Assembly: GCA_038040445.1 (NCBI GenBank)
Contig: JBBPIG010000006.1
Location: 62,001-126,000, forward strand
Length of the DNA: 64,000 nucleotides
Origin: Acidobacteriota bacterium
GTDB lineage: Bacteria; Acidobacteriota; Blastocatellia; UBA7656
Direction: 5' to 3'
Every line of letters begins with the position of its first letter. Position 1 is the stretch's first letter. The notes below the pieces were generated by a model. The model saw only the letters and a list, made by a program, of their open reading frames with translations, ran no database searches and was not told where the DNA came from. Positions 48,665 to 53,389 of the stretch are shown here, in pieces. Position numbers and translations under genes: made by a program.

Positions 48665-51118
48665 ATGGCAGAAGCTGCACATAAGATTCCAGTCAACATA
48701 GAAGAAGAAATGAAGCGCAGCTACCTGGACTACGCGATGAGCGTGATCATCGGCCGCGCGCTTCCCGACGCCCGCGACGGCCTGAAACCCGTACATCGAC
48801 GCATCCTTTTTTCAATGCACGAGATCGGGCTGGTCCCGGGCCGGCCGTTCAAGAAGTCGGCGACCGTCGTTGGCGATGTGCTCGGCAAGTACCACCCGCA
48901 TGGAGACACCGCCGTCTACGATTCATTGGTGCGAATGGCGCAGGACTTTTCGCTCCGCTATCCGCTGGTGGATGGCCAGGGCAACTTCGGTTCGGTCGAC
49001 GGCGACTCGCCGGCTGCATATCGATACACCGAAGCGAGACTCACTCGCATCGCGATGGAGATGCTTGCCGACATAGACAGGGACACCGTCGACTTCGTTC
49101 CCAACTACGATGAGTCGCGTGAAGAGCCGACGGTTTTGCCGACCCGGTATCCGAATCTGCTGGTCAACGGCTCGGGCGGCATCGCGGTCGGCATGGCCAC
49201 CAACATCCCGCCGCATAACTTGAGCGAAGTCATCGAAGCCACGATCTACCTCATTCAAAATCCCACCGCGCGCCTGAAGACGTTGATGGGCATGATACCC
49301 GGGCCCGACTTTCCGACCGGCGGATTCATCTACGGCCGCGAAGGCATCAAGAACGCCTACGAGACAGGCCGGGGCATGGTCATTATGCGCGCGCGGGCCT
49401 CCATAGATCGCGTCGGGCGCACCGGCGAAAGAATGGCCATCGTCGTCACCGAGATTCCTTATCAGGTGAACAAGGCCAAGCTGCTCGAGCGCATAGCCGA
49501 GCTGATCAACGATAAGAAGCTCGACGGCATTTCCGACTTGCGTGACGAATCGGATCGCGAAGGTATGCGAATCGTCATCGAGCTTAAACGCGACGCGATA
49601 CCGGACATCGTGCTGAACAACCTGTACAAGCTGACTCCGATGCAGCAGTCGTTTGGCGTGATCAACCTCGCTATAGTCAACGGGCAGCCGCGTGAGCTTA
49701 AACTGATCGACACGCTGAACATCTTCTTCGAGCATCGGCGCGACGTAGTGCTGCGCCGCACGCGTTACGATCTGAGAAAGGCCGAAGCTCGCGCGCACAT
49801 CCTCGAAGGCTTGAAGAAAGCGCTCGACAATCTGGATGCGGTGATCTCGCTGATTCGCAAATCGAAGAGCGCGCCCGAAGCTCGCGAGGCGTTGATGGAG
49901 CGATTCAACTTCAGCGAGCTGCAGGCGCGCGCCATTCTCGAAATGCAGTTGCAGAAGCTGACCGGCTTGGAGCGGCAAAAGCTGATCGATGAGTACAAAG
50001 AGGTCATTCAGCTCATCGCCGAGCTGGAAGAGATACTGGCTAACGAGTCGGTGCTCCGCAACCTCATCGTCAAGGAACTGCGCGAAGTCCAGAAGGAGTT
50101 CGGCGACAAACGAAGAACCGAGATCATCGAATCGGGCGCCGAGCTCACCCTCGAGGACTTGATCGCCGACGAAGACATGGCCATCACCGTGACCCATTCG
50201 GGATACATCAAGCGCACGCCGGTGTCCGTCTATCGCGCGCAGCGGCGCGGAGGTACGGGCCGCAAGGGGGCGACCACCAAGACCGACGATGTTGTCGATC
50301 ATATCTTTGTCGCGTCGGCTCACAGCTACCTGATGATCTTCACCAGCAACGGCCAGGTCTACAGAATCAAGGTCCACGAGATCCCGGATGCGGCCGCGGC
50401 GGGACGAGGCAAAGCCATCGTCAATCTCGTCAACATCCCTCACGGTGAGAAGTTCGCCGGCATAGTTCCGGTTCGCGACTTTGAAGAGGGCAGGTACGTC
50501 ATTATGGCGACTCGTAAGGGAACGATCAAGAAGACCGAGCTCTCACGATTTGCCAACATTCGAAGCGGCGGAATCATCGCAATGGGAATCGATGAGGGCG
50601 ACGAATTGATCGCCGCCGAGATCACCGACGGCAAGAAGAAGATCTTCCTAGCCACGCACGAAGGAATGGCAATTTGCTTCGATGAATCCAAGCTTAGAGC
50701 TCAGGGACGTCAGGGCTCCGGCGTACGCGGAATTACGCTGGAGAAAAACGACTACGTAATAAGTGTCGCAGCCGTTACAGACGACACTGAGATGCTCTCG
50801 ATCTCGGAGCACGGTTTCGGAAAACGTACGCAGCTCAAGGAGTATCGTGTCACGTCGCGCGGCGGCAAGGGCGTGATCAACATGAAGACCAGCGACCGAA
50901 ATGGTCTGGTTGTCGCCGTATTGCCGGTCAACGACGAGAGTCAGATTATGATAATCACCAATCAGGGCAAACTGATTCGTATGGAGACAAAGGGCATTCG
51001 CGTATCGGGGCGATCGACACAGGGCGTCAAGCTGATCGATGCTTCCGACGGCGACCTGGTATCGTCGGCTTCGCTGATCGAACGTCAGCAAGACGCGACC
51101 ATAGAGCCGGAAAGCTAG
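48665..51118 (+). CDS. gyrA: GyrA, DNA gyrase subunit A
   Basis: Type II topoisomerase subunit that cuts and rejoins DNA to add negative supercoils. 817 residues. Catalytic Tyr121 lies in [14 protein letters not shown]. The quinolone region reads [10 protein letters not shown], with Thr82 and Asp86 at the positions of E. coli Ser83 and Asp87; the small Ser-to-Thr change could affect drug binding. The long coiled coil spans 360-490 and the C-terminal pinwheel (510-810) contains the GyrA box [10 protein letters not shown]. gyrB is not nearby. A TPR lipoprotein gene follows after 11 bases. Confidence 0.97.
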
Positions 51119-51129
51119 CGATAGAGACG

Positions 51130-52044
51130 TTGACAAAGACGATTTCAAGTTCTGTACTGGCGTCCCTCGCTGGACGCCCGTCGTTACCAGAATCTTCTCG
51201 AGGGACACCCGAGGGGCGCCCACAGAGGGACGCCCGTCCAGGGCGAGCGCTTTCCGTTTTTTTCGCGCTGCTGATCGTAGCATTTCTCGCCGGAGGGTGT
51301 GATCGCGATGTAGAGCAATCGCTCTCGCGGGCGGTTGAAGCATGGGATTCCGGTGACTACAAGCGCGCGGCCGAGGAGTATGAACGTTACCTCGAGCATA
51401 ATCCAGCCAGCGAAAAAGCTCCGGAGGCGAGATTCCAACTCGCGAACATCTATTACTTCAAGTTGCGCGGCTACGATCAGGCGCGATCTCACTACACCGC
51501 TTTCGTCGAGCAGAACCCGTCACATCCATCAGCCCAGTTGGCGCGCGAGCGCCTTGCCGAAGTGCTCGGCGAAATGGGACGTTCCTATGAAGCGATCGCC
51601 GAGTATGAGAACCTGAACCCGCAAGACTCGGGCGAGCGCCGCCGCATTCGATTGCGAATTGCGGATCTTTACTTCGCGCAGAGAAACTACAGCCAGGCGC
51701 TGACCGAGTACGAAAAAGTCATCGAGCTGGTCCCTTACGACGAGCTGAGCGAACAGGCGTATTTGCGCGAAGCATCGATCTATCACATCGAGCGCGGGCA
51801 GTATCAACAAGCGTTACCGATTTATCAGAAGCTCGGGTCGATGAGCAGCGATCCGAAGGTCCGAGTGCGCGCGGCGTACGGTCTGGCTGATTGCTATGCT
51901 GGGATGTATCAGTTTGACGAAGCGATAAAAACGTTGCGCGCGATCAAGGACGATCCCGAACAAACTGACGTTGGGCGTCGAGTGGCCGAACTCGAACAGC
52001 AAAAGCGCGAAGCAGCTCAGGCGAGAAGCGGACTGGAAAGGTAG
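51130..52044 (+). CDS. TPR lipoprotein, BamD/YbgF-like
   Basis: 304 residues from a TTG start at 51130. A basic, Pro/Arg-rich leader of about 40 residues comes first, then a hydrophobic stretch and lipobox LAGGC (Cys57). Eight or so TPR-like helices follow (DSGDYKRAAEEYERYLEHNP, RFQLANIYYFKLRGYDQA). BamD-like proteins help outer-membrane assembly; others organise peptidoglycan. The unusually long leader is encoded by a repeat-like sequence, so the real start may be altered or lie elsewhere. It is co-directional with gyrA. Confidence 0.82.
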   Translation: MTKTISSSVLASLAGRPSLPESSRGTPEGRPQRDARPGRALSVFFALLIVAFLAGGCDRDVEQSLSRAVEAWDSGDYKRAAEEYERYLEHNPASEKAPEARFQLANIYYFKLRGYDQARSHYTAFVEQNPSHPSAQLARERLAEVLGEMGRSYEAIAEYENLNPQDSGERRRIRLRIADLYFAQRNYSQALTEYEKVIELVPYDELSEQAYLREASIYHIERGQYQQALPIYQKLGSMSSDPKVRVRAAYGLADCYAGMYQFDEAIKTLRAIKDDPEQTDVGRRVAELEQQKREAAQARSGLER

Positions 52045-52178
52045 AAGGCGGAAGGCAGAAGGCGGAAGGCAGAAGGCAGCGTGACGACTCGAAAACTGCT
52101 TCCTGCTGCCTTCTGCTTACTGCCTTCTGCTTTCTGCCTTCTGCCTTCTGCTTACTGCTTACTGCTTTCTGCCTTCTC
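52045..52178. repeat. Heptamer repeat array, GCAGAAG type
   Basis: Purine-rich arm (GCGGAAG/GCAGAAG), a short centre and a pyrimidine-rich arm, same motif family as the array at 18963-19127. It begins one base after the TPR gene's stop and ends inside the MoaE coding end, supplying its stop codon. Confidence 0.88.
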
Positions 52179-52853
52179 GTTCTCTACCCACACCGCTCCG
52201 TCCTCGAAGTACTCCTTCTTCCAGATCGGCACAATCTTCTTCAAATGATCGATCGCGTAGTGGCAAGCTTCGAACGCGATCTTGCGATGGGCGGAGGTTA
52301 CGACAATGACCACGCTTGACTCTGCTATGTCGATGCGGCCAAGGCGATGAATAATGCCGACGCGATTGACGGGCCAGCGCCCGTGGACCTCGCGGCCGAT
52401 CTGTTCCATTGTGCGACGGGCCATTTGCTCGTAGCCTTCGTATTCGAGGTACAGCGTCCGGCGGCCCTTCGTATTGTTGCGGGCAACTCCGTCGAAGATC
52501 ACCACCGCGCCCGAGTCTCCTTCGAGGAGTCGCGCTCGGAGGCCGGCGATGTCGATCGGTTCACGAGTGATTTCGAAGATGTCGCGGCTTTCAGCTTCGC
52601 CGCCGCTCACAGGGGGAAGCACCGCGAGCTGGTCGCCCTCCGAAAGAGGATGCGAAGGCGCGGCGTATTCTTCATTGACTGCGAACAACAAACTCCGCTC
52701 CATCTCGGCGAGCCTCGGGTGGCGTGATCTGAGAATCGCAAAAGCGCTTTCGACTGTAGCCGGCGCGTCCAATTCGAGATCGAGACTCGACGACCCGACC
52801 CATTCGCGAGCCTGACCGAATAATAGAGCGGTGATGCGTACTGTGTTCGGCAT
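52152..52853 (-). CDS. MoaD-MoaE fusion, molybdopterin synthase
   Basis: 233 residues joining the two subunits of molybdopterin synthase. Residues 1-85 are MoaD (ubiquitin fold) ending LPPVSGG, the Gly-Gly that must be activated and thiocarboxylated. Residues about 92-225 are MoaE with [37 protein letters not shown] and [10 protein letters not shown] (active-site Lys). The enzyme puts the two sulfurs on cyclic pyranopterin monophosphate. A fused MoaD cannot be activated unless cut after Gly-Gly. A JAMM isopeptidase gene lies just upstream. The C-terminus reads into a heptamer array. The start at 52853 is chosen over longer frames. Confidence 0.93.
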
Positions 52854-52860
52854 GGGTGCA

Positions 52861-52960
52861 GAGTCCGTAGTCCGTGGTCCGTAGTCCGTAGTCCGTGGCT
52901 CTCTCGCCATCAACTCGCATCGAAGAGCTACGGACGACTGACTACGGACCACGGACCAGT
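52861..52960. repeat. Heptamer repeat array, GTCCGTA type
   Basis: GTCCGTA/GTCCGTG units, a centre, and a complementary arm. It lies between the MoaD-MoaE start and the JAMM gene, and its right arm contains the JAMM stop codon, so the JAMM C-terminus (VRGP) is partly array-encoded. Confidence 0.88.
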
Positions 52961-53352
52961 TCCACATCCTCGATCTTCGAATCTTCAATCTTGAAAGCAC
53001 GCAGTTCAACGCGCGGTTCAAGCGAGATGATAAAGTAGAACGCTTCGGGGTAGAAAGCCATCTCCACATCCGACGCCGACGGGTAAGCCGGCGTCCGCGG
53101 ATGAGAGTGATAGACCCCAAGCAAAGCCTGGCCTGCTTCGCGGATGCGCCGCGTCGCCGCGAACAACTCTTCGGGCGTCGCGAAGTACCTGGTCTCAGGT
53201 TTGTCGGCGTCGTTGCGAAGCTGATGAATATCGGTAATCAAGCCGTTGCTGCCGCTGAGCAAGCCGCAGCATTCGGCAGGGTGAGTTCGACGCGCGTGTT
53301 CTTCTATCGCGGCAGCGATCGCGTCTGTGATCTGAACGAGCGTGTCGCTCAA
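52942..53352 (-). CDS. JAMM/Mov34-type metalloprotease (isopeptidase)
   Basis: 136 residues from a TTG at 53352, which has GGAGG seven bases upstream. The JAMM signature is complete: an early Glu in HPAECCGLLSG, then VYHSHPRTPAYPSASD (H-x-H-P-x6-S-x-x-D) for zinc. Bacterial relatives (Mec+) cut ubiquitin-like proteins after Gly-Gly. Here it is next to a MoaD-MoaE fusion, so it is a natural candidate for cutting that fusion or for releasing MoaD/ThiS-like proteins from adducts. Both reading frames are co-directional, with a heptamer array between them. Confidence 0.92.
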   Translation of the reverse strand: MSDTLVQITDAIAAAIEEHARRTHPAECCGLLSGSNGLITDIHQLRNDADKPETRYFATPEELFAATRRIREAGQALLGVYHSHPRTPAYPSASDVEMAFYPEAFYFIISLEPRVELRAFKIEDSKIEDVELVRGP

Positions 53353-53389
53353 CCGGAGGCCTCCGCATCGAAGTCTGTCGCTGTGGATT

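Follow-up and report, generated by a model that had tools for sequence, protein, structure and literature searches.

MoaD, the sulfur carrier of molybdopterin synthase, must present a free Gly-Gly end if it is to be adenylated and thiocarboxylated, a step for which it needs a MoeB/MoeZ enzyme. JAMM proteases of the Mec+ type cleave sulfur carriers after the Gly-Gly. Described systems bring these two themes together in a synthase whose MoaD and MoaE parts are made as one chain. In Deinococcus radiodurans, according to the accounts of Yang 2018 given in PMC8832034 and PMC11237513, the JAMM protein DRJAMM (DR0402) cleaves the natural MoaD-MoaE fusion DR2607; the passage of Cai 2022 (PMC8832034) that cites Yang 2018 adds that the cut leaves a C-terminal Gly and that the mutant accumulates cPMP. 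In Haloferax volcanii, SAMP1-MoaE depends for its activity on HvJAMM1, which severs it behind the last Gly (Cao 2015, PMC4443979). The MoaX protein of Mycobacterium tuberculosis is a MoaD-MoaE fusion that must be cut after Gly82, and the protease responsible was reported as unidentified (PMC4326299). The Mec+/CysO/CysM system is covered by operon classes 4c-4d of Iyer 2006 (PMC1779556), where a class 4c cluster of a ThiS/MoaD-like protein, an E1-rhodanese, a JAB protein and a cysteine synthase is listed for an acidobacterium. Fused Ubl-MoaE proteins were noted in acidobacteria, Firmicutes and others by Cao 2015, whose supplement tabulates such fusions together with JAMM proteins for each species (PMC4443979).

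Here we consider a JAMM gene and a fused moaDE gene that lie side by side in a Blastocatellia-like acidobacterium, whose closest named relative is the Blastocatellia MAG Chersky_418 (L137, 84% identity). The window, by which we mean the whole stretch of DNA analysed, comprises 64,000 nucleotides of contig JBBPIG010000006.1. As with DR0402 and DR2607, the window encodes a stand-alone JAMM/MPN+ protein and a natural MoaD-MoaE fusion; unlike the window pair, the Deinococcus genes are probably not neighbours, to judge by the numbering of dr_0402 and DR2607. HvJAMM1 offers another likeness, a JAMM protein acting on a MoaD-like Gly-Gly protein joined to MoaE, and its family, that of the haloarchaeal desampylase NF041370, is the best NCBIfam match of the window JAMM, although at 91.2 bits the match falls below the equivalog cut-off of 130. 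The linear fusion studied in Haloferax was, however, artificial, and the natural substrates of HvJAMM1 are isopeptide conjugates. MoaX shares with the window protein the internal Gly-Gly of a fusion. The Mec+/CysO/CysM system also combines a JAMM protein with a Gly-Gly sulfur carrier, but differs from the window pair in JAMM clade and in gene neighbourhood. A preliminary description of this DNA had regarded the pairing as undescribed, a view that does not stand against the functional pairing already in print (Yang 2018 via PMC8832034 and PMC11237513; PMC8832034; PMC4443979). JAMM cleavage of MoaD-MoaE is already published; what appear to be new are the adjacency of the genes and a JAMM clade that is dedicated to the fusion and strictly coupled with it. 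Within the open-access literature, neither the gene pair nor the JAMM clade division nor a test of fusion-protease co-occurrence turned up in any report.

The gene pair and its surroundings

Both genes were found where the preliminary description had placed them, and Pfam together with the sequence itself bears out the PVSGG end of MoaD and the complete JAMM motif that it had recorded (Table 1). On the minus strand of the window the JAMM gene comes first and moaDE follows after a gap of 88 nt. The JAMM frame runs from its TTG at 53352 to a stop at 52942, and its product matches Prok-JAB (PF14464, E 1.5e-22) and JAB (PF01398, E 4e-6), both over the cut-off, with each residue of the Glu plus HxH-x7-S-x2-D zinc motif in place (E27, H82-S-H84, S92 and D95). 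The moaDE frame opens with ATG at 52853 and closes with a stop at 52152; along its 233-aa chain Pfam recognizes ThiS (PF02597, residues 10-85, E 2e-15) and then MoaE (PF02391, residues 95-206, E 2e-36), so that a MoaD bearing Gly-Gly is followed by MoaE in one chain, as befits a fused molybdopterin synthase. It encodes the single MoaE of the whole genome (6.75 Mb, 72 contigs). Around the pair lie gyrA and a TPR protein, both encoded on the opposite strand, and a partial cyclophilin; no further moa gene was seen adjoining the pair. A 322-aa ORF at 52152-53120 in the mechanical list was rejected as an artefact whose open frame runs back over the JAMM gene.

Table 1. Features of the JAMM-moaDE pair, with positions counted in the window.
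Feature	Position	Strand	Basis
moaDE, fused MoaD-MoaE molybdopterin synthase, 233 aa	52152..52853	-	Pfam ThiS and MoaE
MoaD (sulfur carrier) part, residues 1-85	52599..52853	-	PF02597, residues 10-85; TIGR01682, residues 7-85
Gly84-Gly85, predicted cleavage after Gly85	52599..52604	-	Invariant PPVSGG; low pLDDT at junction
Linker EAESRDI, residues 86-92	52578..52598	-	Alignment; length and sequence differ among relatives
MoaE (catalytic) part, residues 93-233; conserved H189, R190, K205, K212	52155..52577	-	PF02391; invariant columns
JAMM gene (TTG start) for a clade-A JAMM/MPN+ metalloprotease of 136 aa	52942..53352	-	PF14464, PF01398; translation; tree
JAMM motif HSHPRTPAYPSASD (H82, H84, S92, D95)	53068..53109	-	Sequence
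Catalytic Glu27 of JAMM motif (PAECCG)	53272..53274	-	Sequence
Shine-Dalgarno-like GGAGG, 7 nt upstream of JAMM TTG	53360..53364	-	Sequence

Several further features of the surroundings were recorded. Short direct and inverted repeats (ctgccttctgc; gtccgtagtccgtgg) are present at 52044-52185 and 52860-52962 of the window; the former stretch fills the convergent gap that follows moaDE, the latter the space separating JAMM from moaDE, and the final residues of MoaE are encoded within the first repeat stretch. The cyclophilin-type frame at 53390-53878 matches only positions 2-109 of the 159 in PF00160 and is possibly frameshifted. In the relatives G006 and G002 the nearby gyrA contains an intein-like insertion (L281:13449-16001 and L282:3459-7475), and the gyrA of the window (48665-51118) is without one.

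The junction between MoaD and MoaE

The MoaD part ends in PPVSGG (residues 80-85), a stretch that shows no variation across the 14 fusions aligned from the phylum or across 31 sequences drawn from the window and from named genomes, Paenibacillus included. The linker that follows is free to vary in length and sequence, from about 5 to over 40 residues. In the window protein it is short, and its presence corrects the preliminary description, in which MoaD was joined directly to MoaE. H189, R190, K205 and K212 of the MoaE part (window numbering) are invariant in both fusion alignments, the last two of which are the counterparts of K119 and K126, the catalytic lysines in the MoaE of E. coli. For the fusion, an AlphaFold model built from 31 sequences consists of two confident domains, and its pLDDT falls below 50 in just two places, residues 82-88 (VSGGEAE) between these domains and the C-terminus; the putative cut site is accordingly predicted to be a flexible loop. 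As a separate observation, one locus (L315, G422:C479) has a fused frame that apparently lacks the PPVSGG stretch at its junction, and its match to the JAMM clade termed A below is partial (a frame of 97 aa).

Adjacency within one family

In every genome of the window's family in the collection (7/7, spanning five genera), fused moaDE is directly preceded on its own strand by a JAMM gene. One of these genomes (G002, locus L282) has a 4-nt overlap between the two genes, and in another (G001) the pair is kept although the flanking genes differ; on these three grounds we regard the pairing as more than chance. The proximity of moaDE fusions and JAMM genes that the preliminary description had proposed to look for in other genomes was thus encountered throughout the family, but the phylum sample also holds 25 fused loci outside it, and at none of these was a JAMM seen within about 3 kb to either side. 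Among the named genomes no fused locus except L137 has a JAMM nearby (up to 6 kb), and L137 itself very likely represents G003, a genome of the window's genus. Given the lack of JAMM genes near fused loci beyond the family, adjacency is a feature of one lineage: it is confined to one family, and elsewhere the same two genes are unlinked. Contrary to the earlier notion of a self-contained pair, the two genes are not fully so, because MoaD needs a MoeB/MoeZ enzyme encoded elsewhere. A CysO-MoeZ fusion is encoded elsewhere in the window's genome, on G000:C3.

Two JAMM clades in one genome

The genome contains a second complete JAMM gene (G000:C3:70400), which lies among genes for CysM, for an isochorismatase-like protein and for a CysO-MoeB-rhodanese fusion. 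This second JAMM is the genome's real Mec+ enzyme, residing in a CysM-Mec-CysO-MoeZ cluster of the kind in class 4c of Iyer 2006 (PMC1779556). In a tree of 80 JAMM rows, the window JAMM falls in clade A and the second JAMM elsewhere, in clade B, a split that is based on 127 columns and is weakly supported at the deep root (78/82). Clade B rows nearly always adjoin CysM, CysO or MoeZ, clade A rows never do, and it is clade A, not B, that adjoins moaDE in the window's family. Profile scores separate the clades as well: the window JAMM reaches 189.9 bits with the A model and 83.4 with the B model, and across the class the scores to the A model do not overlap, being at least 103 bits for clade A and at most 82 for others. 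The preliminary description had drawn on the Mec+ type in its reading of the window JAMM; we reject membership in that type, since the Mec of this genome is encoded at another place, alongside CysM and CysO, no CysO or CysM is found near the window gene, and the tree places the two enzymes in different clades, albeit with a weak root split. The sequence of the window JAMM matches the solved JAMM structures 2kks, 2kcq, 5lda and 1r5x; its AlphaFold model, made from only 2 sequences, has a pLDDT of 48.5.

The second cluster has an architecture of its own. At G000:C3:70379-72375 (L267:6380-8376) the Mec-type JAMM is followed by the CysO-MoeB-rhodanese fusion, whose internal junction reads ...VPSIAGG-VAVIEEG. 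The genome has here another ubiquitin-like fusion with a JAMM of its own next to it, and the architecture recurs across the class.

Co-occurrence across the class

Three profile searches were applied to 147 genomes of the window's class, with a genome scored as fused where one open frame extends across MoaD and MoaE and otherwise as separate or unclear; a set of doubtful cases was re-read from the sequence. A phylum-wide count of any JAMM against the fusion was set aside as the main test, because most JAMMs of the phylum are Mec-type and follow the cysteine pathway, and the clades were therefore separated first. Clade-A JAMM occurs in 53 of 56 fused genomes and in none of 74 separate ones. When only genomes of at least 90% completeness are counted, the figures are 41/41 and 0/49, and by genus they are 32/33 and 0/15; the three fused genomes without clade A are 73-87% complete. 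Clade B tracks the fusion less well (41/56 fused against 34/74 separate), and five fused genomes of at least 90% completeness possess A and lack B. Kinship among genomes inflates the raw significance of such co-occurrence, and it is for this reason that the number of changes between the fused and separate states matters. The MoaE tree needs at least four, and families f3, f4 and f6 each include both states, with clade A tracking the state within each. The co-occurrence of the two genes across genomes, on which the preliminary description had made its reading depend, is in this respect confirmed by the class (53/56 against 0/74). Six class genomes have clade A and no detected MoaE (G433, G435, G425, G429, G414 and G421), among them G433 and G435, which are nonetheless 96% and 94% complete; assembly gaps may explain some of the clade-A genomes without an intact MoaE, or the JAMM may have another role.

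Beyond the class

In a second, independent phylum, fused moaDE is present in 97 of 104 Paenibacillaceae genomes, and all 97 have a JAMM match (PF14464, E <1e-9). Four members of the family (G464, G476, G481 and G482) instead have a separate moaD ending ...SGG-stop, with no JAMM beyond a weak match near 2e-4; MoaE was not detected in G464, and in G476 a stop codon directly follows PPVSGG, MoaE is the next gene and there is no JAMM at all. Of the other Paenibacillaceae, G484 has a broken fusion and a JAMM, G549 a JAMM and no detected moaDE, and G548 neither. The Paenibacillaceae JAMMs that were read carry the full motif, have no CysM or CysO near them, and in most cases, though not in every one, obtain a better score from the clade-A model than from the clade-B model. 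Among 50 named genomes, a JAMM accompanies 43 of 47 fused synthases and none of three separate ones (two Mucilaginibacter and one Ignavibacteria). Outside the class, separate moaD and moaE coexist with JAMMs in or near clade A in three genomes (G258, G234 and G161). In Terriglobia, fused moaDE coexists with only Mec-type JAMMs among those examined; the clade-A enzyme is therefore not always needed, and either Mec or another enzyme must cut there or the fusion is handled otherwise. It was also observed that the Mec-type JAMMs of Terriglobia-like genomes such as G028, G117 and G144 (L240, L246 and L247) often have Trp for Pro before the motif Ser (HSHPDHPAQWSxTD).

Proposed processing and its alternatives

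Taken together, the unvarying Gly-Gly, a junction predicted to be flexible, the adjacency throughout the family and the near-perfect co-occurrence make the clade-A JAMM the likely protease. We accordingly favor the reading that the clade-A JAMM beside moaDE is the dedicated processing protease of the fusion and cuts it after Gly85, to which we attach a probability of roughly 0.88. That the JAMM protein matures the fusion had been predicted in the preliminary description, and the prediction is strongly supported by co-occurrence across genomes and by published JAMM cleavage of like fusions. MoaD and MoaE would be translated as one chain, with the Gly-Gly of MoaD locked in the flexible junction and so presumably barred from adenylation and thiocarboxylation. 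The zinc-bearing JAMM would then bind the ubiquitin-like MoaD domain, thread the PPVSGG tail into its active site and hydrolyze the bond after Gly85. This cut would release MoaD with a Gly-Gly end and MoaE with its first residue near Glu86, and the two would then form active molybdopterin synthase. For the window organism we infer the cleavage, its position and its necessity from these comparisons.

The fusion could instead be cut by a Mec-type JAMM of clade B, or by some other protease, with the adjoining clade-A JAMM serving another substrate. Such an arrangement would suit the Terriglobia, where only Mec-type JAMMs were seen with fused moaDE, and cutting after the Gly-Gly of sulfur carriers is what Mec+ enzymes do. 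We nevertheless judge it improbable, given that separate-gene genomes of the class retain clade B (34/74) and never clade A, that five fused genomes of at least 90% completeness have A and no B, and that clade A, not B, stands beside moaDE in the window's family. Somewhat less probable still is a mainly desampylase-like role, in which the JAMM would remove MoaD that is isopeptide-linked to the lysines of MoaE or to other proteins, and cut the fusion only secondarily. The sub-threshold match to NF041370 (91 bits, cut-off 130) leans this way, as does HvJAMM1, which does both (PMC4443979), but deconjugation alone would not predict that all 74 separate-gene class genomes should dispense with clade A.

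Shared ancestry or chance might also have produced both adjacency and co-occurrence, with the fusion working uncut or being cut by a general protease. Adjacency is indeed limited to one family, and related genomes are not independent. Set against this are the four or more changes between fused and separate on the MoaE tree, the agreement of clade A with the state in f3, f4 and f6, the same pattern in Paenibacillaceae, and the inactivity of uncut fusions in Haloferax and Mycobacterium (PMC4443979, PMC4326299); of the readings considered, we hold this to be the most remote. Processing of the fusion by its clade-A JAMM remains the explanation that we prefer.

Implications

For fused synthases the protease has been settled by experiment in Deinococcus alone, to which Haloferax adds a related case, and the question was open for MoaX. 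Terriglobia are a clear exception to explain; G476 represents a natural fission with the protease absent, and as such is ready-made evidence. We also entertain, as a speculation that we think more doubtful than probable, that there are two parallel sulfur-carrier systems with a JAMM each, clade A serving MoaD-MoaE and clade B (Mec) serving CysO, which is in turn frequently joined to MoeZ across an internal Gly-Gly, and that the MoaD-MoaE fusion is a stored, inactive synthase switched on by its private protease. If this were true, cofactor synthesis would be controllable after translation. More broadly, the genome pattern predicts the protease for many acidobacteria and Paenibacillaceae, and predicts it to be an enzyme distinct from the JAMM of the cysteine pathway.
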